Origin: Thermococcus barophilus MP
Lineage (GTDB): Archaea > Methanobacteriota_B > Thermococci > Thermococcales > Thermococcaceae
Assembly (NCBI RefSeq): GCF_000151105.2
Contig: NC_014804.1
Coordinates: forward strand, 1,662,567 to 1,726,566
Direction: 5' to 3'
Length of the DNA stretch: 64,000 nt
Part shown: positions 25,393 through 40,618 of the stretch, one piece after another
Layout of the letters: each line of letters begins with the position of its first letter
Position numbering within the stretch: the first letter of the stretch is position 1
The notes under the pieces: generated by a model
Told to the model about the DNA's origin: nothing
Databases searched by the model: none
Seen by the model: only the letters and a program-made list of their open reading frames with translations
Translations under genes and position numbers: made by a program

Positions 25393-26112
25393 TCAGAAAA
25401 GTTCTCCATTAATGAATCTTTTTGTTAGTTCACTTTTTGGTCTTTCGAACACTTCCTTAGTTTTGCCAACTTCAACTATCTTTCCAGCGTACATGTGGGC
25501 GACCCTGTCGGCGAGCCTCTTCGCCTGGAACATGTTGTGGGTCGAGAAGACTATCGTCGTGCCGTTTTCCTTGGTGATTTCCTTTACGATGTCCTCTATT
25601 ATGGCCGAGTTCGTTGGGTCAAGGTTGGCTGTAGGCTCGTCCATCAGGAGGAGCTTCGGCTCAAGGACTATCGCCCTCGCTATGGCGACCCTCTGTTTTT
25701 CTCCGCCGGACAGCGTTTTGGCCTTTCTCTTTTCGTAGCCCTCAAGCCTCACAAGGGAGAGCACCTCGTGAACTTTTTTCTCTATCTCTGCCCTGGAGTA
25801 GCCCCTCAGCTTTAACCCATAGGCGATGTTCTTGAAAACGGTCGTGTTGAACATTACCGGGGTCTGAAACACCATGGTGATGTTTTTTCTCAGCTCCCCC
25901 GGCCGGCTCCAGTTGACAGGCTTCCCATCGAAAAAGTACTCCCCCGAGTCGGGCCTCTCAAGCAAGGCCAAAATCCTCAGCAGGGTGGTCTTCCCGGCCC
26001 CGCTGTGCCCCATGACGCAGAATATCTCGCCCTTTTTGACCTCAAGGCTCACACCGTCCAGCGCCCTGTGGTCTTCGTAGCTCTTAACTAAGTTCTCGGC
26101 CCTCACTATCAT
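25393..26112 (-). CDS. tupC: Tungstate-type ABC transporter ATPase
   Basis: A 239-residue ABC ATPase with Walker A (GHSGAGKTT), Q-loop (VFQTPVMF), signature LSGGEKQR, Walker B (LLLMDEPTANLD) and H-loop (STHN). ATG 26112 overlaps the permease stop as ATGA, so it is the third gene of a tupABC-like operon. Most of the gene is clearly GC-rich (one 60-base line at 25681 counts 55 %) whereas its last about 60 bp are AT-rich like the surroundings. Substrate is inferred from the binding protein: tungstate, possibly molybdate. Confidence 0.9.
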   Translation of the reverse strand: MIVRAENLVKSYEDHRALDGVSLEVKKGEIFCVMGHSGAGKTTLLRILALLERPDSGEYFFDGKPVNWSRPGELRKNITMVFQTPVMFNTTVFKNIAYGLKLRGYSRAEIEKKVHEVLSLVRLEGYEKRKAKTLSGGEKQRVAIARAIVLEPKLLLMDEPTANLDPTNSAIIEDIVKEITKENGTTIVFSTHNMFQAKRLADRVAHMYAGKIVEVGKTKEVFERPKSELTKRFINGELF

Positions 26113-26816
26113 TCCAACCACTTCCGCACAAGGTTTGAAAGCAGGTTCACAGCCAATACTATGCCCATGAGGATTATGCCCAGCGCTATCGCCATATTTA
26201 TCTCCGCCCTGACGGTGTACATCTGTATTGCAGTGGTGAGAACCCGGGTGTTGTAAACGCCACCCCTAACGTAGATGTTGCCGCCGATCATGAGGGCTAT
26301 GCCGAGCTCGGCTATGGCCCTGTTGAAGGCCGCTATGATGGCTAAGACTATACCTCCGACGCTCTCCCTGACCACTTGGAAGGATGCACGCATCTCATCG
26401 GCACCGAGAGTTAAGGCCAGCTCTCTCACCTCACCCTCTATCGACTCCAGCGAGTTCACGACTATGCTCATAATTATTGGGGTTATCAACAATGCTTGAC
26501 CGACGCTTATCCCCATCTCCGTGTAGAGAAGGCCGAGGGAACCGAGCGGGCCGAGGGGGACGAACATCAGGTAGAGCACCAGGCCCCAGATAACGGTCGG
26601 GACTCCCATGAGCCCGTTTATCAGGGTCTTAACCAGCCATTTGCCGGGGAAGTCCTTCAGGCCGAGGAGCACTGAAATCGGCAGAGACCACGCCACCGCC
26701 ATCAGTGTCGCTATGCCTGAAACCTTGATGGAACGGAGGGCTATCTCTATCACGTAGGGGTCGTCTATCAGCTTCACAGCCTCTGAAAATCCCTGGATTA
26801 TGTAGTCCCACGCCAT
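26109..26816 (-). CDS. tupB: Tungstate-type ABC transporter permease
   Basis: A 235-residue permease with five to six membrane helices (for example GIATLMAVAWSLPISVLLGL, MGVPTVIWGLVLYLMFVPLG, and VNLLSNLV at the end). The cytoplasmic EAA-type loop is ELALTLGADEMRASFQVV, followed by ESVGGIVLAIIAAFNRAIAE. This is the TupB pattern. The gene is the most GC-rich part of the tract (39 of 60 counted at 26521-26580). It lies 39 bp after the binding-protein gene. Confidence 0.9.
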   Translation of the reverse strand: MAWDYIIQGFSEAVKLIDDPYVIEIALRSIKVSGIATLMAVAWSLPISVLLGLKDFPGKWLVKTLINGLMGVPTVIWGLVLYLMFVPLGPLGSLGLLYTEMGISVGQALLITPIIMSIVVNSLESIEGEVRELALTLGADEMRASFQVVRESVGGIVLAIIAAFNRAIAELGIALMIGGNIYVRGGVYNTRVLTTAIQMYTVRAEINMAIALGIILMGIVLAVNLLSNLVRKWLE

Positions 26817-26855
26817 CTTTCATCCACCCTGAGATGGAGGAAAGAAATAAAAGGC

Positions 26856-27884
26856 TTAGCCCCCAACCACCGAGGCCGGGAACTCGAAGAAGTCGTAGGT
26901 GGCGTTGTACCTGAACTTCTCGGGACATTCGGTGTATTTATCCCCGTCCTTCATGAAGCCGTACTTGAGGATCCACCTGAAGACATCCCCCTGCTCGCCC
27001 TTGAGAACCGGAACGGCCGGGTAGAACAGGGGCCTTCCAAACTCGTCCTTCCCGTACTCGGCTATAGCCTTCTGACCCTCGTCGCTGGTGAGCCACTCGG
27101 CCAAGAGCATCGCATCCTTAAAGTCCTTGCCGGGTATCTTCTTCGGGTTGATTATGATTATGGCGTAGACGTTTATGAGCTCCTCCCCCTTGTCAACGAG
27201 GACGTCCAGGTTTATCTTGCCTTCCTTCTGGTACTTGAGGTAGGTTCCTATGTCCGAGATGGTGTATGCCTTCCTCTCGCTCGTGTAGAGGAGCGTGTTG
27301 CCCATTCCGGCACCGGTGGTTCCGAACCAGCTCTCGTTCTTCAGCTCGTTGAAATCGAAGCCAGCGTTCTTCCACAGGGCTATTTCCTTCGTGTTTGTTC
27401 CCGAACCGTCGTCCCTTGAGACCCAGACGATTTTGTCGGGATGGGCCCTGCCGTACTCGACGATCTTCTTGAGCGCCTCGGAAACGCTTAAACCTCTAAT
27501 TCCAGCAGGGTCGTCCTTCGGGCCGACTATCACGAAGAAGTTGTAAGCAAAGACCTTTCTGTTCACCCCGTAGCCCTCCTCCATGAAGGCCTGTTCCTTC
27601 GGGAGTGCATGCACGAGTATGGCATCGCTGGCACCGCTTTTAGCATCGAGAATCGCTCCCCCTGTCCCCTTGGGGATGAAGCGGAGCTCTATGTTGTACT
27701 TCTCCTTGAAAATTGGTGCAACCACGTTCTCAAGGATTCCGGTATCGTAGAGGCTGGTGGTGGTTGAAATCGTAAGAACCTTGGGCTTTGCCGTTGCAAC
27801 CTCATTGCTGTTACCTATACATCCATAAGAAAAGCTGACAAGAATGAGAGCTAACAAAAATCCCAGCTTTAGCCTCTTATTCAT
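26856..27884 (-). CDS. tupA: Tungstate-type ABC transporter substrate-binding lipoprotein
   Basis: 342 residues. The signal peptide ends in a lipobox-like SYGC (about residue 24), so it is probably lipid-anchored outside the membrane. TISTTTSLYDTGILENVVAP is the TupA signature; GTGGAILDAKSGASDAILVH, ysRDDGSGTNTKE and TTGAGMGNTL supply the oxyanion-binding loops. The ATG at 27884 follows GGTGAACATC. A TATA box (tatttataaa, 27914-27923 read leftward) sits about 30 bp upstream. The signal-peptide region is AT-rich, whereas the mature part is GC-rich, a visible mosaic. Thermococcales more often carry WtpA; by its motifs this is the Tup type. Confidence 0.9.
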   Translation of the reverse strand: MNKRLKLGFLLALILVSFSYGCIGNSNEVATAKPKVLTISTTTSLYDTGILENVVAPIFKEKYNIELRFIPKGTGGAILDAKSGASDAILVHALPKEQAFMEEGYGVNRKVFAYNFFVIVGPKDDPAGIRGLSVSEALKKIVEYGRAHPDKIVWVSRDDGSGTNTKEIALWKNAGFDFNELKNESWFGTTGAGMGNTLLYTSERKAYTISDIGTYLKYQKEGKINLDVLVDKGEELINVYAIIIINPKKIPGKDFKDAMLLAEWLTSDEGQKAIAEYGKDEFGRPLFYPAVPVLKGEQGDVFRWILKYGFMKDGDKYTECPEKFRYNATYDFFEFPASVVGG

Positions 27885-27962
27885 GATGTTCACCATTTAT
27901 TCGTGTAGAAACAATATTTATAAACATTTTTGCATATTTTAAATGCTTTCGTTTAACAGATG

Positions 27963-29033
27963 CTACTCAAGTATAGCGATTATTCCCTTCCATTTCTTCC
28001 CAAAGCATTCACTTGCTATGACTTTCTTTCCAGTAATCTTTTCCAAAAGCTTTTTTGCTGAGTCGCACTTTTTAAATCCAGTTGCTATACCCACAGTAAA
28101 TCCTTCAATTTCCTTAATCCCAACTCTCTTCACATTGCTCGGTTCAATCTTCTCTCTAAACTTCCAAAGTATTCTCCTTGGGTCAAGCAAAAGCTCTTGC
28201 TCAATCTCCTCAAGAACATCACTGTATGCCCATTGGAATTCCTCTTCCCTCTTCTCTTCTTTTTCAAATAGGGTGAATTTCCCTGTCTGCCACTCTCTAA
28301 GGAAGTATCTTGCTGTTTCTTCAATGTCAACTTCTCCTCCTTTTCTAAGTAAACCCTTCTTTCTACCGATCGCCTCCAAAATCTGCTCCTCACTTTCAAA
28401 CTCTTGAATGTCATATTTCTCAGTCAAGGCTTCTTTTCTGGTATCAATGATACGTCTAATAAGCTTTAATGCCGGCTTTACCGGGTCTTCAATCTTATCT
28501 GCTGGGAACCCTCCTTTGATTACAAGTTCGTCAAAGTCATCTATCGGTACAACACCGGGAGAGTCTATTAACCATATTTTCTTACTGAGCCTTATAAGCT
28601 GTTTTCCTTTGGTATACCCAGGAATTGGGGCGACTCCAACGGCATGTTTACCTTTAAGGACATTAATTATTGTGCTCTTTCCAACATTTGGATAGCCAAT
28701 TAATGCAACTTTAACTTTTTCTTTTCCTTCATCAAACAGCTCTTTTGCTATCTTTTTGATTTCTCTTCTCAGGATTCCAGTTCCTTTTCGTTCTCTTGCA
28801 CTGATAAAAACCATCGGAACATCGCTCTTTCTCTTATACTCTTCAGCCCATTCTTTAGGAACTAAATCGGCTTTGTTCATAGCTATGAGCAGTTTTTTTC
28901 CGCTTTCCTTCACTAACCTCTCAACCTTTGGGTTTCTCGTTCCAATTGGATCCCTCGCATCAACTACCTCAATTACAATATCAGCCTCGTCTATCACTTC
29001 TCTCACTATTCTCCATGCTTTTTTCTGCTTCAT
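27963..29033 (-). CDS. Circularly permuted GTPase (YlqF/YawG family)
   Basis: A 356-residue GTPase with permuted motif order: G4 NKADL and G5 ISARERKG come before G1 GYPNVGKST, then G2/G3 (DSPGV). Family members act in large-subunit ribosome biogenesis. The N-terminal DEADIVIEVVDARDPIGTRN is characteristic. The C-terminal about 120 residues are charged, with a final domain (GIKEIEGFTVGIATGFKKCD) that may be an RNA- or protein-binding module. ATG 29033 follows GGTGGTGAAAG. The first 53 bp overlap the preceding gene. Confidence 0.92.
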   Translation of the reverse strand: MKQKKAWRIVREVIDEADIVIEVVDARDPIGTRNPKVERLVKESGKKLLIAMNKADLVPKEWAEEYKRKSDVPMVFISARERKGTGILRREIKKIAKELFDEGKEKVKVALIGYPNVGKSTIINVLKGKHAVGVAPIPGYTKGKQLIRLSKKIWLIDSPGVVPIDDFDELVIKGGFPADKIEDPVKPALKLIRRIIDTRKEALTEKYDIQEFESEEQILEAIGRKKGLLRKGGEVDIEETARYFLREWQTGKFTLFEKEEKREEEFQWAYSDVLEEIEQELLLDPRRILWKFREKIEPSNVKRVGIKEIEGFTVGIATGFKKCDSAKKLLEKITGKKVIASECFGKKWKGIIAILE

Positions 29034-29408: not shown

Positions 29409-30839
29409 ATGGTGGTGCTCAAGGTGTCAGAGGATATTGAAGCGAAAATTAGAAGGTTGAGAGAGTTGGGAAAGGCAACTGCCGAGCAAGAAGCCAGACC
29501 TCCCAAGCCCGCTGTGACAAGACCTCCGAGAAGAGTTTCTAAAATTGGAAGTCTTAGAGAAAGGGAAAGAAAAAGAAGAATTATAATAGGAGCTGCAATC
29601 GTGATTATAATACTCTTGGCGATTTCATTTGCCGCTTATACTTATTACCAGAATAGAACCCTCAGGGAGTTAGAGAAAGCGAAACAGCAAAAAATTGCTG
29701 AGGTCAATAGGTATTTTACAGGGGAACTTGCCAATGATACTGCCAAATTTGAGCTGATCAAACAAATTCAAGCTGCTAAAAGTATTGAGGAGCTTAACAA
29801 GATTGATGTGAAGAAAGTCTATGAGGAACGTTTGGCTGAGTTGCAAAGAAGAAAAGAGGAAGAAGCTAAGAAAAAAGCTCTTGAAGAGCTAAACAAAGCC
29901 AAAGCTCAGCAAATATCTGCAATTGAGCAAGCATTTGAACCGTTGTTGGCTCAGCCTCTTCCGGAAGACTTGAAAAATAAGGCAATTAAGAAATTAAATC
30001 AACTTAAACAGGAAGTTGAGAATGCTCAAAGTAAGGAACAAGTTCTCGCCGTTGATCCCACACCGTATCTGATGGATTTATGGAAAGAATACTATTATTA
30101 CTTAATTGATTCTATTCCAACTCAAAAGGTAATTCTAAAGAAGGGTGAGGAGAAGAGAATATATACAAAAATTGAAGCCAAATACGTAATCAGTAAAATA
30201 ACAGATCTTGGGGAGCTCCTTCAATATACAATTGAAAAAGCGGAAATGGTGCAAATTGCCCTTGTGTTAACAAGAGACAGGATAAATGGGGCATTTCTTT
30301 CACCGGGTGATAAGATCAAAATTTATGCTAAAAATGGTACAAAAGGCCAATACATCAAAATCGCAGATGAAGGGTATGTTGATTTGGTGCTTCTCCCTAC
30401 GACAGCAGGTCAAATTTCACTGAGCGAATCTCAGAGTGAGGGAAGTACGGTTTCGACGTCATCAACCACATCCTATTCAGAATCACACTCAACAAGCTAT
30501 ACTCCCGGAGATACTACAATAACAAATGCTCAAAATGCAAATAACCAATATTCTACAACTCAATCAAGCAGTGACAGCTCAAGTGCATATTACAATTATA
30601 ATGTCAACTTGGCTGAAGTTCTGAAGGCAATTGCAGCTGGAAAAATCGAAGCTCCAGAGGATGTTAAAGAACAGCTCTCACAGTATGGATGGAAAATTAT
30701 TGATCTCGAAAAAGATTCAGGCATGCTTGTGCTCGATCCCACGGCCAGATTTCTTGTAATAATCGAAGTTCCGGCCGAATTTGTTACGGACATATTAAAC
30801 CATAAGGACATGATCTATATTGCAAAAATCACGGGGTGA
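29409..30839 (+). CDS. DUF515 family membrane protein of a pilus-type operon
   Basis: 476 residues, matching my recollection of the archaeal DUF515 family. A basic cytoplasmic N-terminus (1-57, with PPKPAVTRPPRRVSK) is followed by one membrane helix (about 58-80, RIIIGAAIVIIILLAISFAA), a coiled coil (about 84-215), and a globular domain. A Ser/Thr/Asn-rich linker (about 336-397) follows, then a conserved C-terminal domain (VLKAIAAGKIEAPEDVKEQL). The topology suggests a bitopic scaffold that could link an extracellular structure to the membrane. It is the first gene of the operon with a secretion ATPase and two platform proteins. The start among ATG 29409 and GTG 29412/29415 is uncertain. Confidence 0.8.
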   Translation: MVVLKVSEDIEAKIRRLRELGKATAEQEARPPKPAVTRPPRRVSKIGSLRERERKRRIIIGAAIVIIILLAISFAAYTYYQNRTLRELEKAKQQKIAEVNRYFTGELANDTAKFELIKQIQAAKSIEELNKIDVKKVYEERLAELQRRKEEEAKKKALEELNKAKAQQISAIEQAFEPLLAQPLPEDLKNKAIKKLNQLKQEVENAQSKEQVLAVDPTPYLMDLWKEYYYYLIDSIPTQKVILKKGEEKRIYTKIEAKYVISKITDLGELLQYTIEKAEMVQIALVLTRDRINGAFLSPGDKIKIYAKNGTKGQYIKIADEGYVDLVLLPTTAGQISLSESQSEGSTVSTSSTTSYSESHSTSYTPGDTTITNAQNANNQYSTTQSSSDSSSAYYNYNVNLAEVLKAIAAGKIEAPEDVKEQLSQYGWKIIDLEKDSGMLVLDPTARFLVIIEVPAEFVTDILNHKDMIYIAKITG

Positions 30840-30845
30840 CAGACA

Positions 30846-31886
30846 ATGAAAAGGTCTCTCCTTTCATTTTTCCTTGTTTTTTGGCTATTTGGAGCATTCT
30901 TAAATGCCTCTGTAACTGGTGAGGACTATCCTCTTCCTGGAGGGGATTACAATAATATTGGGATTAAGGCAAGTCTTTATATTGATCTAAACATAACATT
31001 GATTAATACTGCCCCATTTCCAAAATTTGTAATCGTTAACCCATATTACAATTACATAATATATAGAGAGAATGGGGAAGTTTTAAGGGAAATTGGAAAT
31101 GTGTCTTATATAACACCTGCTTTGAACACTCTCAACTACCTTCCAGGCTTCTGGGTCAATCCGTATGAGACTCTGAAAGTTGAAGTAATGGTTAGAGATG
31201 ATAACGTTATTGATCTACCATTAAAAGAGTACAAATCCGCATTTCCACACAGCATAACTATTGTTTATCCAAACACGACTTCTGTGGTGTATTATGTTAA
31301 GACAGAGAAAGATGTGCAAAACTTTTTTTATGGTACTGTATACCCCCAACTGTTATTAACTCCTCGCTACTATTTCGATGTCCAAACTTCTTTCTTTGGA
31401 AGAGACGGGGATATTAAAATACTAAAATATGATGGGGAAGTAACTTTGGTTCTCCAGAATATTCCCAACAAGTATGGACTATTCAGGACATTATTTGCCG
31501 TTGGATTGCCGGCTGTTTTTGAGAATGCCAATCATTATGGATTTACTCCGGAATACACCATGAGGTACAGTGAGTATGTTTCTGAATTTCTACCAAGCTT
31601 TTTAGGAGTGAAAGAGGAACCTAAAACACAAAATGTCTCCAAAAAAGAATTTAATTTATACCCTCTATCAAACAAGCTTTTGAGTGGGAAAAAGATTGAA
31701 AACATAAAGCAACCAAAAACTAAATTGGAGAGCTTTGATTACCCTGTATGGATTGTGTGGCTTGGAAGTAGTCCCCTTGAAATAAAATATCACGTATCTT
31801 GGAACAATGATGAAAAGGTGAATGCAATTGAAAGACAAAAAGAGAAAGCACTCTGGTTTGTCTTGGATAGAAGAAATCCTGAGTAA
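30846..31886 (+). CDS. Secreted protein of the pilus-type operon
   Basis: 346 residues with a cleavable-looking signal peptide (MKRSLLSFFLVFWLFGAFLN) and a beta-rich, Tyr/Asn-rich body (VNPYYNYIIYRENGEVLREI). No C-terminal anchor is obvious; the tail becomes charged (NAIERQKEKALWFVLDRRNP). I do not recognise a family. It begins 6 bp after the DUF515 gene and overlaps the ATPase gene by up to 65 bp, so all are translated as a unit. It is likely an extracytoplasmic component or surface subunit of the assembly system (inference). Confidence 0.75.
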   Translation: MKRSLLSFFLVFWLFGAFLNASVTGEDYPLPGGDYNNIGIKASLYIDLNITLINTAPFPKFVIVNPYYNYIIYRENGEVLREIGNVSYITPALNTLNYLPGFWVNPYETLKVEVMVRDDNVIDLPLKEYKSAFPHSITIVYPNTTSVVYYVKTEKDVQNFFYGTVYPQLLLTPRYYFDVQTSFFGRDGDIKILKYDGEVTLVLQNIPNKYGLFRTLFAVGLPAVFENANHYGFTPEYTMRYSEYVSEFLPSFLGVKEEPKTQNVSKKEFNLYPLSNKLLSGKKIENIKQPKTKLESFDYPVWIVWLGSSPLEIKYHVSWNNDEKVNAIERQKEKALWFVLDRRNPE

Positions 31887-33717
31887 AGATGCCGCTCCTT
31901 TAGAGAATATTTTGGGAGAGACAGACAAAAAGAAGGAAGATAAATCCCGGGGAGCGGCGTTCCCATTTGGAAGTGGAGGAGGGTTAGACAGCATTCTATC
32001 TGAGAACTCCACAAAAGAAGAAAAAACAAAATCTCCATTTCCATTTTTGAAAGAAGAAAAAAGTGGGGTTAAATTGGAGGATATTCTTGGAGTTCCCGAA
32101 AAGAAGCCTGTGGAACAGACATTTCCAAAGGAGGGGAGGAAAGAAACGCCCTTAACACTTCAGGATATTTTAGGAGCGCCCCACAAGAGAGGTGTAATTC
32201 CTCCTTATGTTGGAGAGGTTAAAGTCCTGGATGCATATGGGAATGTGCGCATTCTCAAAGTTAAAGGGGAGCCAGTACCGATATATGAACTAAGGCTTCC
32301 TGAGCTTAGTAAAGATGAAGAGAAACTTCTCAAGATGGTGAGAGATAGAGCAGTTGTTGAGATTCAAATTGATCCGGAGAGCATACCAGACATAGAAGAG
32401 AGACGGAGAATTTTCCTTAAAGCCGTAAAAAATATGGTAAGGGAGATGGCTCCCACTTTATCTGAGGGGAGAATAGAGATCCTTACTGAGCTTGTTGTTC
32501 AAAATATGATAGGGTATGGCAGACTTGACCCATTGGTGAGAGATGATAATCTTGAAGAAATAATGGTTATTGGAACCAACAAGCCGGTCTATGTGTGGCA
32601 CAGAAGGTTTAACATGTGTAAAACTAATATTGTATTTAAGGATGATAGGGAGATTTTAAACATAATTGAGCGTATCGCAAGGGAAGTTGGAAGAAGGATT
32701 GATCAGCAAAGTCCGCTTTTAGATGCCCGTTTGCCTGATGGAAGCAGAGTAAATGCTACTATTCCACCGATCAGCTTAGATGGCCCAACAATTACAATTA
32801 GAAAGTTTAAAAAGGATCCACTGACGATAATTGACCTTATAAAGTATGGTACACTTAATACTGAGGTTGCAGCTTTGCTTTGGATATTTGTCGATGGATT
32901 GGGCATTAAGCCCGCAAATATCCTTGTCGCTGGTGGAACTGGTTCGGGTAAAACAACAACGCTGAATTCTCTTGCAATGTTTATTCCACCGAGTGAAAGA
33001 GTCATCTCCATTGAAGACACTGCTGAACTTCAGTTGCCGATAGAACATTGGGTCAGATTGGAAACAAGACCCCCAAATGTTGAGGGAAAAGGAGAAATTA
33101 CGATGGATGATCTCGTTAAGAACACGTTGCGTATGAGACCTGATAGAATCATAGTTGGTGAGGTCAGAGGGCCAGAGGCAAGAACGATGTTTACAGCCAT
33201 GAACACAGGGCATGATGGTTGTATGGGCACAATTCACTCCAACTCAGCAAGAGAAACAATTGTTAGGCTTGAGAGTCCACCAATGAACGTTCCAAGAATT
33301 ATGATACCTGCTTTGGATATTATCATCATGCAAATCAGGTACCATAGTAGAAAAAAGGGAACAATAAGAAGAATCACAGAAATCGCTGAAGTCTCGGGAA
33401 TTGAGGGTGAGAGTATTCAGTTGAACAAGTTGTACAAGTACGATCCGGCTAAGGATGAACTTGTTGCAACGGGAGTTCCAAGCAGGTTTATGAATATTTT
33501 AGCTCAGCACACCGGACTAAGCCTCACTGAGCTTGAAATTGAAAAAGAGAAGAGAAAACTCGTGCTGGAGTGGATGATAGAGAGAGGAATAAGAGGTATT
33601 GAGGAAGTCGGACACTATATAAGACAGTTCTACATAGACTCAGAAGATCTTCTTAAGAGAATTGAGAGAGAAAGTACATCTGCTGAACTTGCAAAGAAAG
33701 TTAAGAGCTTTATTTAA
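31828..33717 (+). CDS. Type II/IV secretion system ATPase (TadA/PilB-like)
   Basis: A hexameric assembly ATPase powering a type IV pilus-like machine. The core (about 190-560) has the Walker A AGGTGSGKTTT (about 367-377), Asp box SIEDTAEL, Walker B DRIIVGEVRG and His box GTIHSN. The first about 125 residues are low-complexity and carry five L-x-x-I-L-(G/S) segments (WIEEILSKD, LENILGETD, LDSILSEN, LEDILGVPE, LQDILGAPH). I prefer TTG 31828, six bases after AGGTGA; ATG 31822 touches that signal. Followed by two TadB/C-type membrane proteins. Confidence 0.92.
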   Translation: MKDKKRKHSGLSWIEEILSKDAAPLENILGETDKKKEDKSRGAAFPFGSGGGLDSILSENSTKEEKTKSPFPFLKEEKSGVKLEDILGVPEKKPVEQTFPKEGRKETPLTLQDILGAPHKRGVIPPYVGEVKVLDAYGNVRILKVKGEPVPIYELRLPELSKDEEKLLKMVRDRAVVEIQIDPESIPDIEERRRIFLKAVKNMVREMAPTLSEGRIEILTELVVQNMIGYGRLDPLVRDDNLEEIMVIGTNKPVYVWHRRFNMCKTNIVFKDDREILNIIERIAREVGRRIDQQSPLLDARLPDGSRVNATIPPISLDGPTITIRKFKKDPLTIIDLIKYGTLNTEVAALLWIFVDGLGIKPANILVAGGTGSGKTTTLNSLAMFIPPSERVISIEDTAELQLPIEHWVRLETRPPNVEGKGEITMDDLVKNTLRMRPDRIIVGEVRGPEARTMFTAMNTGHDGCMGTIHSNSARETIVRLESPPMNVPRIMIPALDIIIMQIRYHSRKKGTIRRITEIAEVSGIEGESIQLNKLYKYDPAKDELVATGVPSRFMNILAQHTGLSLTELEIEKEKRKLVLEWMIERGIRGIEEVGHYIRQFYIDSEDLLKRIERESTSAELAKKVKSFI

Positions 33718-33728
33718 GGTGGTGTCTG

Positions 33729-34790
33729 TTGGGAATTGGTAAAAAAATAACTGATATCTTCGAGAAAATTGGCGAAAAAACTCTGGAACTTAGTGAGAAG
33801 CCCATTAGACGAATTCCTCAAGGAAAAAGCATTCAAGAGAGGCTTCAGGTACTCAAGAAAATGCAGGAGGAAGTCGAAACAGAAAGAAAGGAAGAGAGGG
33901 AAAAAGAAATTGAGGAGCTTGTAGAATGGAGAGAGAAAGAACTTCAAAAGCCTTTTTCTGAAAGAATTGCAGAAGCAGTATTAAAGTATTTCAGTGGTCC
34001 AGTTAGATCCTTGACAAAGTCGTTAAAGGGATTGGAGTATGACCTGTATAGGGCCAATATTAGAATGAGTAAGGACAAATATGTGGCATTGATGATTGGA
34101 GTTAGCATCATTTCAAGTATTTTTACATTCTTAGTTGGAGTTCTCCTCATGCTCCCCGTGGATGTTTCGGTGTTATTAGCACTTCTTGGATTCATTGGTG
34201 GATTCCTCTATATGAGGAATTACCCCAGAATTGTGTGGAAACACAGGGTTGCAGAGGTAGAAAGAGCAATGCCTTATGTTCTTAGGCATTTAGCATCTTT
34301 ATTAAGTGCTGGTGTCGGTATTGCAGAGGCAATATTATCGGTTGCAAATTCGGATTATGGCGTGATTTCGGAGGAATTCGAACTTATAATCAGAGATATG
34401 CGTGGTGGTGCATCCTTTGAGGAGGCTTTGACAAGATTTGAAGAGAGAATGGCATCAGAAAATGTGAGCAGAGTTGTGAAGCAAATGCTGAGGGCAGTAA
34501 AATTTGGAGGGAATTTATCGGGAATACTCTACAAGCTGGCTGAGGACTTTTCATTTGAGTACAGAATGAGGCTTGTGGAGTATGTTCAAAAAGTCAATGG
34601 GTTAGCATTCGTTTACATGTTTATAAGCGTCGTCATGCCCACAATGCTTGTGGTCGCCGTATTGGCGGCATCAATAATGAATAAAAGATTGATTATGCCC
34701 ATTCAAGGATTGGCAGTGGTACTGCTTTTTGGCTTTCCAGCAATGGCATTTCTGATGGTTGTGATGATAAAACGCAGTGAGCCGAGGTGA
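33729..34790 (+). CDS. TadB/TadC-type pilus platform membrane protein 1
   Basis: 353 residues. The N-terminal about 90 residues are a charged coiled coil (QEEVETERKEEREKEIEELV). Membrane helices are at about 118-140 (ALMIGVSIISSIFTFLVGVL), 145-160, and two near the C-terminus, with a cytoplasmic T2SSF domain between (VAEVERAMPYVLRHLASLLS, GVGIAEAILSV). The start is TTG 33729 after AGGTGG. Together with the next gene it forms the usual pair of archaeal platform proteins (FlaJ/TadB-TadC type) that dock on the ATPase. Confidence 0.88.
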   Translation: MGIGKKITDIFEKIGEKTLELSEKPIRRIPQGKSIQERLQVLKKMQEEVETERKEEREKEIEELVEWREKELQKPFSERIAEAVLKYFSGPVRSLTKSLKGLEYDLYRANIRMSKDKYVALMIGVSIISSIFTFLVGVLLMLPVDVSVLLALLGFIGGFLYMRNYPRIVWKHRVAEVERAMPYVLRHLASLLSAGVGIAEAILSVANSDYGVISEEFELIIRDMRGGASFEEALTRFEERMASENVSRVVKQMLRAVKFGGNLSGILYKLAEDFSFEYRMRLVEYVQKVNGLAFVYMFISVVMPTMLVVAVLAASIMNKRLIMPIQGLAVVLLFGFPAMAFLMVVMIKRSEPR

Positions 34791-34795
34791 GTAAA

Positions 34796-35704
34796 ATGGT
34801 CAGAGTTCAAATTACCCCTTATCTTGTTAAAATTACAGAAAAAGTTATCCCCAAGAAGCTCTTAAAAAAATATGACTTGCTTTTGTATTCTGCGGGAATA
34901 GCTTTTAGAGCAAGTGAATATCTGTTGATGTCGTTCCTTATATCTATAATTATCGGGACAGTATTGTCAATGCTTAACTCCATTTATGGGGTTGTAGCTT
35001 TTATTGTAACGCTGATTAGCACAATTTGGGTATATCCCTATTGGAGAATCGTCAAAAGGATTGAGGACATGGAGCAGATGCTTCCTGATGCTTTCTTCTA
35101 TTTAGCAAGTTCTCTTAGAGCTGGCATCTCATTCTCAGAAGCATTGGAAGAGCTCACTACAGCAAAGTTCGGAGCATTAACTGAAGAGTTTAGAAAAACA
35201 GTTGCAGAAATCAAAAAAGGCAGACCAACTGTGGAAGCATTAAAAGCGTTTGCCCTAAGGAACAAAAAATCTCCAGTGATATACAGGTCAATGATGATTA
35301 TAATTGAAGCACTCGAAAGGGGTGCACCAATGGCTGATGTTCTCGTTTCAGTTGGTAATGACGTTCGTGAAATTTTAAGAATCAAAAAGGAGAGAAAAGC
35401 TTCAACTGGAATGCAGACAATGTTCTTCATAATCGCGAGTGGCTTCGTGGGTCCATTGATTCTTGGAGTTGTGTCCCAGGTGATTGCTGGATTGAGCGGT
35501 GTTGGGGGCTCAGTAATCCTGCCAATCTCATCTATAAAAAACATACTTTTGATATTTGTTGCTTTGCAAGCAATAATCTCGGGGATAGGAATTGGAGTAA
35601 TAAGGGAAGGAAAGTTTTTGGGAGGCTTAAAATACAGTGCAGTGCTGGCAGTTGTGGGAGTTATAGTGTTTAACCTTGCTGGCTCTATAAATCTGGGTAT
35701 TTAG
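34796..35704 (+). CDS. TadB/TadC-type pilus platform membrane protein 2
   Basis: 302 residues with T2SSF motif segments (EDMEQMLPDAFFYLASSLRA, GISFSEALEEL) and helices at about 35-75 and three near the C-terminus. ATG 34796 follows GAGGTGAG; GTG 34787 overlaps the upstream TGA. It is paralogous to the preceding gene. No prepilin gene or prepilin peptidase follows; the convergent FKBP gene ends the operon. Confidence 0.87.
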   Translation: MVRVQITPYLVKITEKVIPKKLLKKYDLLLYSAGIAFRASEYLLMSFLISIIIGTVLSMLNSIYGVVAFIVTLISTIWVYPYWRIVKRIEDMEQMLPDAFFYLASSLRAGISFSEALEELTTAKFGALTEEFRKTVAEIKKGRPTVEALKAFALRNKKSPVIYRSMMIIIEALERGAPMADVLVSVGNDVREILRIKKERKASTGMQTMFFIIASGFVGPLILGVVSQVIAGLSGVGGSVILPISSIKNILLIFVALQAIISGIGIGVIREGKFLGGLKYSAVLAVVGVIVFNLAGSINLGI

Positions 35705-37100: not shown

Positions 37101-37173
37101 ACATTAATCACCTAACTTTTTCAACAATGTAAAACTTTTTAAGTTTATCCATCATAACTATTGTTTGGTCAAA

Positions 37174-38013
37174 ATGAAAAGAAAAGGCCTAGCATTGTTT
37201 TCAGTGCTGTTTCTCTTGATGGCACTTATAATGAGCGGTCAGGCCAAAATAGAGGAGATTCCAAAAGGTTCACAAAATTATTATTGGGTTGGTCTGTTTT
37301 TTGGGATCATTGTGATAGCCGCGGGCTTTATTATTATCCAAATACTTCTGAGCTGGCAGGATCTGCCTACAAAAAGGAGAAATGAGGGAATTAATCAGCA
37401 AATAATAGTTGCAATTTTTGCTGGAACGTTGATGCTCTCTCTACCTCTGCTTTATATGGCATATAAAGCTCAGCTCTCTCCGATGGTGGCAAATAATACT
37501 ACAACACAAGGGGTGTATGTTGTTAACGGAAGCTATCATGTAACGTATTACGAAAAATACTTTAGAAATCCTGTTTTTCAAGAATCCTCCAATGTGGGAG
37601 TTATACTTTATGGTGTGTTTGGAGTGGTTTCTGCCACTTTGGTTTATCTTTCAATGGTATTTTATAAAGACTTAAGTGCCAAGAGAAAAATAAAGAAGCT
37701 TAAAAAGGAAGTTCAGGAGTTTGACAAAAGGCTTAAAGAAGAGGGAATTTCATTCATCGGAGATCCCAAAGATATTGTTGTTAAGCTGTACAAAAATGCT
37801 GTCATATGGCTTGAAATTTTGGGAATTCCCTACAGAGAAAGCTGGACCCACTGGGAACATGCGAAGAGAGTAAGATACAAACACGACGCTTATGTTGAGC
37901 TTGCACGACTTTTTGAAAAAGCCAAATATGCTCCAGAAAAAGTAACGATGGAAGATGCCAAAAGGGCTTATGAACTTTACCTAATAATTAAAGGTGAGGG
38001 GCATGAGAGTTAG
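37174..38013 (+). CDS. DUF4129-type membrane protein
   Basis: 279 residues: a signal peptide or first helix (ALFSVLFLLMALIMSG), then helices at about 40-60 (YYWVGLFFGIIVIAAGFIII), 75-95 and 145-165. A cytoplasmic C-terminal domain (WLEILGIPYRESWTHWEHAK, then YVELARLFEKAKYAPEKVTM) matches DUF4129. An extracellular loop carries NNTT/NGS sequons. It is the first gene of a five-gene MoxR/DUF58 operon. ATG 37174 is close to a TATA-like tttttaagtt (37136), so the mRNA may be nearly leaderless. Confidence 0.78.
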   Translation: MKRKGLALFSVLFLLMALIMSGQAKIEEIPKGSQNYYWVGLFFGIIVIAAGFIIIQILLSWQDLPTKRRNEGINQQIIVAIFAGTLMLSLPLLYMAYKAQLSPMVANNTTTQGVYVVNGSYHVTYYEKYFRNPVFQESSNVGVILYGVFGVVSATLVYLSMVFYKDLSAKRKIKKLKKEVQEFDKRLKEEGISFIGDPKDIVVKLYKNAVIWLEILGIPYRESWTHWEHAKRVRYKHDAYVELARLFEKAKYAPEKVTMEDAKRAYELYLIIKGEGHES

Positions 38014-38437
38014 CAAAGCTTTATTCCTTGCAGTTCCCTTTGCCTTAATGGCGTTTCTCTCTGGTTCTTATTTGGTGAGATGGCTTGGTGTTATAATTGC
38101 TGGTGTTATTCTGATTGTAGTTCTTTTTGGCTTTGAAATTCAAAGTGAATATATCCCACGAAGAAAGCGAAACTTGATTTCTGGCAAAAGTGACCTTGAA
38201 AGATTGACTTCTGTTGTTAAAAGAGCAAAAAAAGGGAAGATGGCAAGAGAAATTATTGCTGAGGAGATCAGAGAAATTTATGCTCTCCTCTCTGATGAAT
38301 ACACCCGTTTTGACCTTAAGTCAAATCCTAATGAGGCATTAAGACTTCTCCACTCTGAAGGCGACTTTTATGAAAATTTGAAAAAAGCCTTGGAAATCGT
38401 GGAGGCTGATTTGAATGAAGATAGAAGAAGTGCATGA
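38003..38437 (+). CDS. Small membrane protein of the MoxR operon
   Basis: 144 residues: two N-terminal helices ([38 protein letters not shown]) and a charged cytoplasmic tail ([20 protein letters not shown]). ATG 38003 follows GGTGAGGGGC and overlaps the upstream gene by 11 bp; its own end overlaps moxR by 23 bp. Families like this recur in archaeal MoxR-DUF58 clusters; I cannot name one. Confidence 0.75.
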
Positions 38438-39368
38438 GAAAGGGAAACTTATATTAAATGAAGTTGGAAAAGCAATAGTTGGCAAAGAGGAAGTTCTTAA
38501 GCTCATATTGACGACAATCCTTGCAGATGGGCACATTTTGATTGAAGATTTGCCGGGATTGGCAAAGACACTTATGGCAAAGAGCTTTGCAACAGCCTTG
38601 GGGGTTAAGTTCAGAAGAGTTCAGTTTACACCCGATTTATTGCCCTCGGACATTTTGGGTGTAAGCGTCTTCAACCAGAAAACACTGGAGTTTGAATTCC
38701 GAAAAGGCCCAATCTTCACAAACATATTATTGGCCGATGAGATTAACAGAGCTCCGCCAAAGACTCAATCTGCACTATTGGAGGCAATGCAGGAGAGACA
38801 GGTGACGATTGAGGGTAAGACATATTATTTGGACAGGCCATTTGTTGTTATTGCAACTCAGAACCCAATAGAGCAGGAGGGGACATATCCACTGCCAGAA
38901 GCTCAGCTTGACCGTTTTCTTGTCAGACTTAGAGTTGGTTATCCAACAAAGCAGGAAGAAATTGAGATACTTAGGAGAAGAATTGAGAGGAAAAAGGAGG
39001 AAGTTGACATTAATCCAATAGTGACTCCAGAAGAAGTTGTTGAGATGCAGAAAGCTGTTGAAGATGTTTATGTCAGCGACGCAGTATTGGAGTATATAAC
39101 AGACATCGTAAAAGCCACAAGGGAAAACAAGAGGGAAATTGATATCGGTGCTTCCCCGAGAGGGAGCTTGGCTTTACTTAAGCTCTCGAGAGCTTACGCT
39201 GCTTTGGAGGGAAGGGACTACGTGATTCCAGACGATGTTAAGAAGGTTGCGGTGCCTGCTCTAAGCCATCGTTTGATACTGAAGAGAGAGCTCTGGTATA
39301 CAAGGGTTAGTCAGGAGAGTGTTATGCAGAGAATTCTGGAGAAAATTCCAGTTCCGAAGTTTGAGTAA
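38415..39368 (+). CDS. MoxR-family AAA+ ATPase
   Basis: 317 residues, a chaperone-like ATPase thought to mature or activate partner complexes. Walker A is degenerate in usual MoxR style ([18 protein letters not shown]), Walker B is [20 protein letters not shown], sensor 1 [20 protein letters not shown], sensor 2 [17 protein letters not shown]. It is in an operon with the DUF58 and DUF4129 proteins, the standard partner set. ATG 38415. Confidence 0.95.
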
Positions 39369-39379
39369 AGGGGATCCTT

Positions 39380-40618
39380 ATGGAAAGAAAATTCCAGCCT
39401 ACAGGAAAGGCAGAGCAGCTGTTGCTTGCCTTATGGCTTTCAGTGATGGTAGCTTTTTTCATGCTGCGCTGGGATATGATATACCTTACGCTACCTATGT
39501 TGTGGCTCTTTTTTGTTGCAATGACTTTTTTCAAACCAAGGCTTGACGTTGAAATCAAAAGAATTTTGCCTCATGACAGAATTCTTGAAGGGAGTGAAAT
39601 AGAGATAAGGCTGAAGATTAAGGCAAATGAGAGGATCCCAAGCTTAAAAATAGCTGATGACCTGCCGAAGGGTCTTGAGCTCGTTGAAGGCAAAAACGAG
39701 TTTTTGCTCTCCTTTACAAGGGGTGAGGAAAAAGAGGTATCTTATAAAGTCAAAGTCAAACGCGGCATTCATGAGTTTAATTTCATTAAGCTCAGCTATC
39801 AAGACCCCTTTGGCTTTTTCAAGATAGAAAAAATAATAGATTTGTACGATGAGCTTATAGGTGTTCCGATAGTTGAAGATGTTGTAACGCCGTACTCAAC
39901 TAAAGGAACAAAGGTTACAGTTGGGCCTCTGCCTTCTCCAAGAATCGGAGAAGGTGTTGAGTTTCACGCGATTAGAGAATACCAGCCCGGTGATCCGTTA
40001 AAGATAATCAACTGGAAAGCAACCGCAAAGACTGGAAAAATAATGAGCAATGAGTATGAAAGCGAGAGAAAAGTTGATGTAATTTTAATCGTCGATGCAA
40101 CATATAAGGGGGAGAGCACCTTTGATCATCTGATAAGAGCCGCTGCTTCATTCATGCTTGACTGCCTCAACAGTGGAACAAGCTTTGGGCTTTTACTGGC
40201 TGAGGACGTTCCATTGTGGATTAGAGTAGATTATGGAAAGAGGCACTTCTTCAAGTGCATTGACTTTTTGAGCATGGCAAAGCCAGATAAGAACAACATG
40301 ATAGCGTACCAAGTTGAGCATCTGGTTAGGAGCAGATTCCCAGCGAGAGCACAGATCCTATACTTTTCTCCACTCATAACCGAGGAAGGTAGGGAAGCTT
40401 TAAAGGTGCTATACCGCTACGGCTACAAAGTGGTTGTCATTAGCCCAGATCCATACTCAGCACTTAAGCCTAAGAGTGTGGAAGAGGCTTTAGCCTTAAA
40501 GATCCTCCAGCTTAAGAGAAAAGCCCATTTAAGGAAGCTTGCTGCATATGGTATAATAATAGACTGGGACGTTAATAAATCCCTTAAAACAGCGATAGCG
40601 GAGGTAGTTAAAATATGA
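39380..40618 (+). CDS. DUF58 (vWA-like) protein
   Basis: 412 residues: two N-terminal helices (LLLALWLSVMVAFFMLRW, DMIYLTLPMLWLFFVAMTFF), a beta domain, then the DUF58 signature EGVEFHAIREYQPGDPLKIINWKATAKTG split around 195-225, followed by a von Willebrand A-like fold (DVILIVDATYKGES). This is the usual partner of MoxR ATPase. It begins 11 bp after moxR and overlaps the next gene by ATGA. Confidence 0.93.
   Translation: MERKFQPTGKAEQLLLALWLSVMVAFFMLRWDMIYLTLPMLWLFFVAMTFFKPRLDVEIKRILPHDRILEGSEIEIRLKIKANERIPSLKIADDLPKGLELVEGKNEFLLSFTRGEEKEVSYKVKVKRGIHEFNFIKLSYQDPFGFFKIEKIIDLYDELIGVPIVEDVVTPYSTKGTKVTVGPLPSPRIGEGVEFHAIREYQPGDPLKIINWKATAKTGKIMSNEYESERKVDVILIVDATYKGESTFDHLIRAAASFMLDCLNSGTSFGLLLAEDVPLWIRVDYGKRHFFKCIDFLSMAKPDKNNMIAYQVEHLVRSRFPARAQILYFSPLITEEGREALKVLYRYGYKVVVISPDPYSALKPKSVEEALALKILQLKRKAHLRKLAAYGIIIDWDVNKSLKTAIAEVVKI

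Follow-up and report, generated by a model that had tools for sequence, protein, structure and literature searches.

The operon described here is the motor and platform module of an EppA-dependent, Epd-like ('clade 1') archaeal type IV pilus. It lies within a 64 kb stretch of the Thermococcus barophilus MP chromosome, which we call the window. The pilins and the EppA-type prepilin peptidase are missing only locally. What is new here is that DUF515, encoded by the first gene, likely corresponds in archaea to RcpC/CpaB, which forms the alignment ring of bacterial Tad pili. Taken as a whole, we consider it probable that an Epd-like motor/platform module, served by pilins in trans, works with an RcpC/CpaB-like DUF515 ring and a secreted protein that acts as its outer partner.

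The ORF list places five consecutive ORFs on one strand (+) at 29409–35704:

29409..30839, + strand: DUF515 protein, 476 aa, EpdF-like, proposed RcpC/CpaB-type alignment-ring subunit (PF04415, E 3e-149; 9GZR fold match; epd-operon slot in Methanococcus-type loci)
30846..31886, + strand: secreted partner, 346 aa, putative MMP0235 counterpart, predicted beta-rich (signal-like N-terminal helix, model, profile homology)
31822..33717, + strand: assembly ATPase, 631 aa, CpaF/TadA-like, EpdL equivalent (T2SSE, PF00437, E 1e-51)
33729..34790, + strand: platform protein 1, TadB/TadC-like, single T2SSF domain (PF00482, E 2e-23)
34787..35704, + strand: platform protein 2, TadB/TadC-like, single T2SSF domain (PF00482, E 1e-16)

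With one T2SSE and two T2SSF proteins supported by Pfam, the pilus-type assembly operon proposed in an earlier, sequence-only reading is borne out. That reading also called it one overlapping operon; the operon stands, but of its four junctions two are overlaps, of 65 nt and 4 nt, and two are gaps, of 6 nt and 11 nt. A CpaF/TadA-like ATPase accompanied by two separate single-domain platform proteins, one of the criteria for clade 1 T4P, is what the operon encodes. The archaellum (ArlI/ArlJ) has a homologous ATPase and platform, but differs in having its own ATPase and a fused two-domain platform protein at G000:C1:1064-1067 kb. The window ATPase is not of the ArlI type (FlaI model 328 bits against a cut-off of 550), and its platform genes are two and unfused. 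Only two sets of T2SSF genes and two ATPases of the secretion type pass the Pfam cut-offs genome-wide, those of the window operon and those of the archaellum.

The ATPase also carries a repetitive N-terminal tail:

31822..32223, + strand: ATPase N-terminal tail with five LxxIL-type peptides (5 observed against 0.68 in shuffles, P 0.0002, pattern chosen post hoc)

Because the patterns were picked after inspecting the tails, the shuffles overstate the strength of both tail patterns. The LxxIL peptide was not evident by eye in Methanococcus-type ATPase tails or in three bacterial CpaF tails. The window ATPase is intein-free, its insertion site, which we take to be the KlbA intein site, being empty.

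The sequence-only reading had stressed that the operon comes with no class III pilin gene or prepilin peptidase. This holds within the 64 kb and fails across the genome, where both are encoded in trans. A six-frame regular-expression search for EppA-type class III signals gave zero matches across the window, while the one PF01478 match and all seven PF04021 matches in the genome lie outside it. The peptidase is of the large EppA type (375 aa, PF06819 + PF01478), and its PF06819 domain is common to Methanococcus-type EppA. An EppA-type gene and two pilin genes of ~60 aa occupy G000:C1:1073793-1075315. The short class III pilins encoded in trans are 58–61 aa long, with Gln at +1 and Glu at +5 (N-termini AQGALE, AQSALE, AQGAIE and GQAAIE). 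A minor-pilin/DUF2341 cluster sits at about 1.802–1.815 Mb of the same chromosome, its minor pilins adjoined by FtsZ-family and squalene-cyclase genes.

To survey the gene neighbourhood, 20 loci were fetched from the 92 genomes in the window's family that carry DUF515. All 20 have DUF515, the ATPase and the two platform genes in this order, so it is not due to chance. The secreted-protein gene lies between DUF515 and the ATPase in 18 of the 20; L068 and L069 lack it and keep the other operon genes, and the DUF515 frame is split in two in L057 and L058. In a second sample, of 20 platform loci from other families, DUF515 adjoins the ATPase in L157 and L159 and is two genes apart in L156. The sequence-only reading was to be given up if DUF515 and this ATPase did not co-occur in other genomes; they do co-occur, throughout the window-family sample and in these three cases beyond it. 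Of the 55 other-family genomes having a listed platform match, 23 gave no PF04415 match; in two of these 23 (G127, G217) a Thermococcaceae model does pick up DUF515. The secreted protein is encoded directly after DUF515 in 34/40 other-family loci, and no EppA-type pilin gene was seen in 24/40 of those stretches. In one of 26 named loci, L138, no ATPase was found within 3.3 kb after the secreted protein.

Methanococcus-type genomes connect the system to a studied pilus. There epdA and epdB flank the DUF515 gene within the 11-gene epd operon, and because of this slot we infer that DUF515 is MMP0234/EpdF; gene order and prepilin sites likewise suggest that the secreted protein is MMP0235. The order eppA–epdA–DUF515–secreted protein–epdB–epdC plus four genes in L072 and L073 fits mmp0231–0241. 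The prepilin sites of L073 (RAQI, KGQV, KGQV) are those tabulated for EpdA/B/C in PMC4371748. PMC4187195 gives the EpdA site as RGQI, not RAQI; the EpdA position reads RGQI in L072 and RAQI in L073. In published work, mmp0234 is essential for piliation and mmp0235 dispensable (PMC4187195). A screen for transformation defects recovered insertions in epdF, epdJ, epdK and epdL, and the lone transposon hit in the gene that follows epdF could owe its effect to polarity.

The window system resembles the M. maripaludis Epd pilus (EpdJ/K/L, EpdF, EppA) in its CpaF-like ATPase with two single-domain platform proteins, its EppA with short class III pilins, its DUF515 with a secreted partner, and the spread of its parts over several loci. 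Unlike in Epd, the DUF515–secreted protein pair travels with the ATPase and platform genes in the window's family, whereas it lies within the pilin/EppA operon in Methanococcus-type genomes. The window DUF515 also has extra stalk residues (about 138–210) and a long Ser/Thr insertion, unlike the Methanococcus-type protein. Makarova 2016 (PMC4858521) places Thermococci T4P in clade 1 and notes FtsZ-family and squalene-cyclase genes within clade 1 loci. As in the Thermococcus clade 1 T4P of that paper, minor pilins, a DUF2341 protein and FtsZ-family and squalene-cyclase-like genes occur here in trans, and the window system is almost certainly that pilus. DUF515 is unnamed in the main text of PMC4858521 ('duf5', 0 occurrences).

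Based on sequence, model and fold comparison, DUF515 can be divided as follows:

29577..29639, + strand: single transmembrane segment, residues about 57–77 (one hydrophobic segment, within model helix 50–102)
30243..30836, + strand: predicted RcpC D2-like domain, residues about 279–476 (VIA-align Z 9.0, rmsd 2.5, 85 residues, 9gzr_A 128–236)
30408..30602, + strand: Ser/Thr-rich low-confidence insertion, residues about 334–398 (pLDDT under 50; sequence)

DUF515 is thus predicted to have a lone N-terminal membrane anchor and an extracytoplasmic domain (model pLDDT 71.7, pTM 0.51). It is probably the envelope-spanning scaffold that had been suggested. The coiled coil and Ser/Thr-rich stretch named in that suggestion are both present; the Ser/Thr stretch as a spanning linker is not sustained, being a low-confidence insertion inside the RcpC-matching range, and the spacer is more likely the helical part ahead of it.

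The model argues with moderate strength for an RcpC D2 fold. RcpC (9GZR) came first in Foldseek with an E of 0.065, which is not significant alone, and with poor overall superposition. It was also the top VIA row (Z 9.0, the next row in the same range reaching Z 4.8). VIA re-aligns Foldseek's list, and its own rule counts this Z 9.0 as level with a helical match to the stalk at Z 8.4; on its scale, Z 7–8 is typical of models that lack clear relatives. The profile evidence runs through relatives. The Pfam RcpC model PF16976 is over cut-off in 9/63 genomes, all of other lineages, in methanobacterial-type DUF515 proteins. Of its 27 listed matches, 21 were confirmed inside the DUF515 frame, four (G270, G390, G305, G339) had no frame comparison and two (G137:C41, G371:C1:532647) lie elsewhere; weak matches also appear in the H. 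volcanii and S. acidocaldarius controls. In hhalign, 16 other-lineage DUF515 proteins matched 8 CpaB proteins at 88% (control 0.4%), and window-family DUF515 matched those relatives at 100% (E 1e-44). Directly against CpaB, the window's branch gave a weak 9.5% over 24 columns. PF16976 had no match in the 4/4 window-family members tested, and a search of PDB sequences with the 16-member DUF515 profile, up to E 10, did not bring up RcpC. A literature text search for DUF515 found nothing related; a 2025 table (PMC11915815) already labels a methanobacterial group RcpC/CpaB, and part of the DUF515–RcpC link is therefore already in print.

The comparison extends to the Tad/Flp pilus (T4c; RcpC/CpaB ring, 9GZR), which shares an RcpC-like domain on a single-pass anchor, a CpaF-like ATPase, two platform proteins and a parallel order. 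The bacterial order is cpaB-AAA-cpaF-T2SSF-T2SSF, and the window order parallels cpaB-X-cpaF-tadB-tadC. Among the 40 plasmid records listed, CpaF-type genes are 38–45% identical to the window ATPase over 61–71% of the query, with a best E of 1e-92 to an annotated CpaF. Only one of RcpC's two globular domains is matched, and the sequence link is indirect, via relatives. Unlike Tad, the genome has no secretin (RcpA/CpaC): PF00263 gave 0 matches, the control search being positive in 6/14. The slot after cpaB holds a secretin-type gene in 6/8 plasmid loci; here the secreted protein fills it.

That protein has a signal-like N-terminal helix and a beta-rich model (pLDDT 65.2), and a Pfam scan returned no family for it. 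Fold comparison gave matches too weak to place it in a family (best Foldseek E 0.11 among 350,542 chains, best VIA Z 3.9). The family spans four archaeal groups, hhalign giving 70–97% in 5/6 pairs against at most 2.1% in seven controls, though some of these alignments take in the signal peptide. Methanococcus-type and methanobacterial-type members match directly at 4%, and their link passes through a third group. The protein was considered as a pilin and rejected, as no class III signal was found and MMP0235 is reported dispensable. That result (PMC4187195), with the absence of the gene in L068 and L069, also speaks against the suggestion that it is a structural part. It may instead be a conserved outer partner of the DUF515 ring.

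In the mechanism we propose, EppA would process the short pilins encoded elsewhere on the chromosome, and the CpaF/TadA-like ATPase would polymerise them by way of the pair of single-domain platform proteins. DUF515 (EpdF) would be a single-pass membrane protein whose helical stalk holds up the RcpC/CpaB-like domain. The dodecamer of RcpC suggests, by analogy, that DUF515 may form a ring that guides the growing filament across the envelope with no secretin involved. The secreted protein would be the ring's outer partner, for use or anchoring rather than assembly, and the pilus may serve attachment and possibly DNA uptake. Of this picture, the computations show the identity of the module, the placement of pilins and EppA in trans, the conserved pairing of DUF515 with the secreted protein, and the fold and profile links to RcpC.

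DUF515 might be a generic envelope tether in the same pilus module, forming no ring and resembling RcpC by convergence or through a widespread SAF-like fold. The weak direct hhalign link to CpaB, the Foldseek E, the window-family members without PF16976 and the profile that misses RcpC in the PDB sequences would all fit a tether. Against it stand the over-threshold PF16976 matches in methanobacterial-type orthologues, the first rank of 9GZR in both fold comparisons and the occupation of cpaB's gene slot by DUF515, and we consider it unlikely. Far less probable still is a pilin-less secretion machine exporting the 346-aa protein. A window without pilin or peptidase and an operon product with a signal-like N-terminus invite that idea, which we rejected since EppA and class III pilins are encoded in trans here and lie beside the same ATPase–platform genes in several other archaea (an EppA-type gene is present in 7/20 such loci of other families). 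The window operon is, moreover, the sole non-archaellum motor set over cut-offs, and both the reported dispensability of MMP0235 for piliation and the two window-family genomes without the gene count against such a machine.

The secreted protein could also be an adhesin at the pilus tip instead of an outer ring or anchor partner. A possible role at the tip is raised for MMP0235 or MMP0238 in PMC4187195, the model is beta-rich, and mean column identity is 42% (23 sequences) against 60% for DUF515. Its position directly behind DUF515 in other families, often in stretches without an EppA-type pilin gene, points the other way, as do the sortase-like C-terminal tail and adjacent sortase gene of methanobacterial-type members, which fit wall anchoring, and the proposal of DUF2341 proteins as the adhesins. 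We regard the adhesin as possible, if rather doubtful.

A broader and tentative extension of the ring proposal is that the Tad ring is archaeal and pre-dates the secretin. In archaea that lack an outer membrane, the DUF515 ring would dock onto a dedicated secreted exit collar of the MMP0235 type, which in methanobacterial-type genomes would have a sortase of its own to fix it to the wall. When an Epd-like machine moved to bacteria, a secretin might have replaced the collar in the slot after cpaB. The repeated LxxIL peptides might let the motor tail dock on a partner with an avidity that can be tuned.

No function is assigned to the DUF515 family, and a reading as archaeal RcpC/CpaB offers one that is grounded in structure and can be tested. 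In Denise et al. 2019, the descent of bacterial Tad pili from Epd-like pili of archaea was drawn from two platform genes, pilins and a TadZ-like ATPase; DUF515 would add a component to that derivation. If true, the alignment ring would be older than the need to cross an outer membrane. The reading also suggests a role for the essential mmp0234 within the pilus operon of M. maripaludis, and singles out genes with which to ask about pilus DNA uptake in the naturally competent Thermococcus kodakarensis.

Reading frames, Pfam matches and junctions confirmed that a five-gene, same-strand, pilus-type operon occupies positions 29409-35704 of the window (G000:C1:1662567-1726566, on the Thermococcus barophilus MP contig), as the sequence-only reading had proposed. 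Its genes, in order, are:

within 29409-35704, same strand as the other four: DUF515 gene, first of the operon (PF04415)
within 29409-35704, same strand: secreted-protein gene, second, with no Pfam family match
within 29409-35704, same strand: T2SSE ATPase gene, third
within 29409-35704, same strand: two platform genes, fourth and fifth, with one T2SSF domain each

Successive junctions are a 6-nt gap, a 65-nt overlap, an 11-nt gap and a 4-nt overlap. The closest named record found for DUF515 came from a Thermococcus sp. MAG (99% identity; the record of the host genome itself was possibly excluded). The host genome is 2.06 Mb (completeness 99.83%). Above the Pfam cut-off it has two sets of T2SSF genes and as many secretion ATPases, namely the window operon and an archaellum-type set at 1.064 Mb; a third secretion-ATPase match scores slightly below. 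Downstream of the operon lies a same-strand cluster of DUF4129, MoxR-type AAA and DUF58 genes (37165-40618). At 26001-28000, a block covering an ABC transporter permease and binding protein has a G+C of 0.52, against 0.37-0.44 in the remaining 2-kb blocks, and is possibly a recent transfer.

Of the 94 genomes in the window's family, 92 have a PF04415 match; the other two are 69% (G057) and 75% (G086) complete. PF04415 matched none of the 21 genomes from other families of the phylum set, and 148/396 across the domain. The neighbourhood survey bore out the suggested association of DUF515 with this ATPase: the order DUF515, ATPase, platform 1, platform 2 was kept in all 20 family loci fetched, 18 of which carry the secreted-protein gene between DUF515 and the ATPase. 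At loci L068 and L069, which have no such gene between them, the ATPase starts within about 20 nt after DUF515. Among 26 named DUF515 loci, the ATPase frame was complete in 19 and cut by a contig end in three (L120-L122); the sequence stops before an ATPase could appear in L116, L119 and L134, and L138 showed none within the 3.3 kb examined. The L138 contig was assigned to an Anaerolineae bacterium, probably through a binning error; its DUF515 fragment and secreted protein are Thermococcus-like. In L057, L058, G090 and G091 the DUF515 frame is broken by stops or a frame change, through decay or sequencing error.

In other families, among the platform-1 matches listed, PF04415 was also found in 32 of 55 genomes against 10.2 expected (Fisher P 6e-14, a value that ignores the kinship of genomes). 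Within 20 platform loci from these families, DUF515 is the immediate neighbour of the ATPase in L157 and L159 and is two genes off in L156, and an EppA-type gene occurs in seven (L146-L149, L157, L158, L164). The gene order in the family and this co-occurrence suggest a single machine made up of DUF515, EppA, short pilins, the ATPase and the platforms, with its genes split differently between lineages.

DUF515 is likely, though not proven, to be homologous to RcpC/CpaB, the alignment ring of the bacterial Tad pilus. With PF16976, the Pfam model of RcpC, the methanobacterial-type DUF515 of L101 scores 30.1 bits (cut-off 28.8) and that of L088 23.9 bits, below the cut-off; those of L083, L108 and L090 gave no match. 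(Group labels, whether Thermococcaceae, Methanococcus-type or methanobacterial-type, were assigned from closest named records and gene content.) A survey of 63 genomes (59 of other families and four of the window's family) returned PF16976 in 26 at E up to 0.1 and in nine above the cut-off, with none of the four window-family genomes matching. Twenty-one of the 27 matches listed lie inside the DUF515 frame, four have no checkable DUF515 place and two lie elsewhere. Profile comparison with hhalign joined 16 other-lineage DUF515 sequences to eight plasmid-borne CpaB at 88.4% (E 2.8e-6) and window-family DUF515 (24 sequences) to the same 16 at 100% (E 1e-44). Window-family DUF515 against CpaB gave 9.5%, at the same PGDKIKIY site, and the control, secreted protein against CpaB, 0.4%. 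RcpC was not found by the DUF515 profile in a PDB sequence search.

For an AlphaFold2 model of the window DUF515 (24 sequences; pLDDT 71.7, pTM 0.51), the top Foldseek match among 350,542 chains is RcpC (9GZR; E 0.065, prob 0.60, overall superposition poor), with a second 9GZR RcpC chain at rank 8. The top VIA-align row for this predicted structure is also RcpC, pairing model residues 279-476 with RcpC 128-236 (85 residues, rmsd 2.5, Z 9.0). The runner-up over that region has Z 4.8, and a row of Z 8.4 covers the helical stalk only. The two results are not independent, since VIA re-aligns Foldseek's list. RcpC is reported to assemble into a dodecameric conduit whose pore measures about 5 nm (PMC12307814). 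Gene order in plasmid Tad loci is cpaB, AAA ATPase, CpaF, T2SSF, T2SSF in L113, and the same in L112 plus two pilin-type genes ahead of CpaF. Against CpaF-type genes, the window ATPase shows 38-45% identity with 61-71% of its length aligned (40 records, among the matches listed). A secretin-type gene directly follows cpaB in six of eight plasmid Tad loci; no secretin match was obtained in the whole T. barophilus genome.

The secreted partner is conserved. In 40 other-family DUF515 loci, a similar protein is encoded directly next in 34 (cut short in L093, split in L106), a count that takes in L099 and L108, whose protein had no homology test. It follows one small gene in L075 and L078 and is absent from L100 and L110; in L085 and L089 DUF515 was not placed by the models used, but the locus holds a protein of the same cluster. 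Profile comparisons link four groups of this protein in five pairs (96.7, 95.0, 94.0, 91.9 and 70.3%); the sixth pair gave 4% and seven controls at most 2.1%. The six methanobacterial-type copies whose sequence was read end in a tail made of TG, a membrane helix and Arg. Genes of one sequence cluster occur in 11 loci, and both members scanned (L101, L099) matched PF04203 Sortase. In L101 (10911-12619) and other methanobacterial-type loci like it, the genes for DUF515 and the secreted protein are followed by a sortase gene, and the tail of the secreted protein is sortase-like. The secreted protein may be an external partner of a putative DUF515 ring, or may anchor that ring to the wall.

The N-terminal tail of the ATPase carries repeated LxxIL peptides. 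Hydrophobic-x-x-[IL]-[LIF] peptides number 97 in the tails of 21 family ATPases, window included, against 12.2 in shuffles (maximum 24 in 1000); the window tail (31822-32223) has five against 0.68 (P 0.0002). A single LxxIL[GA]-type copy occurs in the first 110 residues of 9/20 other archaeal ATPases, against 0.97 expected; both patterns were picked after the tails had been read. The plain reading is of a docking peptide multiplied in the window's family. Fourteen of 21 ATPase orthologues (window 31822-33717, L052-L071) have an insert of about 200-520 aa after NTGH(D/N)G, the KlbA intein site; the window copy is empty.

The reported absence of pilin and prepilin peptidase holds for the 64-kb window, where a regex scan found no EppA-type signals, but not for the genome, where both sit in trans. 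The one PF01478 prepilin-peptidase match is a 375-aa protein (1073793-1074920) that also has PF06819, in common with the Methanococcus-type EppA of L073, and directly upstream on the same strand are class III signal genes of 61 and 58 aa. PF04021 matches seven places in the genome and none in the window. A cluster at about 1.802-1.815 Mb encodes a squalene-cyclase-like protein, a tubulin/CetZ-like GTPase, a DUF2341 protein, one PF04021-matching protein and several with similar N-termini, as judged by eye. This arrangement agrees with the clade 1 system described by Makarova et al. 2016 (PMC4858521), who mention FtsZ-family and squalene-cyclase genes in the clade 1 loci of most Thermococci, as well as numerous pilin genes that stand alone. 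The EppA-type protein is the single A24-type peptidase match despite the archaellum-type ATPase/platform set; an archaellin peptidase of divergent sequence may have escaped the search.

Methanococcus-type loci L072 and L073 provide a link to function. Their order (122-aa gene, EppA, class III pilin, DUF515, secreted protein, two class III pilins, four more genes) is the 11-gene mmp0231-0241 plan. The prepilin sites of L073 (RAQI, KGQV, KGQV) are those tabulated for EpdA, EpdB and EpdC (PMC4371748), and the first of L072 (RGQI) is that given elsewhere for EpdA (PMC4187195). From gene order and sites we infer that DUF515 is MMP0234 and the secreted protein MMP0235. Piliation needs mmp0234 and not mmp0235, according to results given as in preparation (PMC4187195), and the ATPase and two membrane proteins lie at a separate locus (PMC3875500). 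Transformation-defective transposon insertions were recovered in epdF, a neighbour of epdA, and in epdJ, epdK and epdL; the gene following epdF had one, possibly polar (PMC10133366).

In the portions consulted of the literature on DUF515 and on RcpC/CpaB in archaea, we found no published tie of DUF515 or EpdF to RcpC. Denise et al. 2019 (PMC6668835) trace Tad back to Epd-like pili, using evidence from platforms, pilins and TadZ, and RcpC occurs once in the text available, as an accessory component of the Tad model. A group from pseudomurein-bearing archaea is labelled 'Flp pilus assembly protein RcpC/CpaB' in PMC11915815, listed beside 'Sortase E', a coiled-coil gene and an MreB-like gene, and set aside there as probably not involved in pseudomurein biosynthesis. 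As L101 holds DUF515, sortase and MreB genes within one locus, it looks like that same locus. Further related literature includes PMC13170226 and PMC10191384. As a system, the operon is an ordinary pilus module, and its lack of a pilin is accounted for; what deserves attention is that DUF515 probably belongs to the alignment-ring family of Tad pili, together with its conserved secreted partner.
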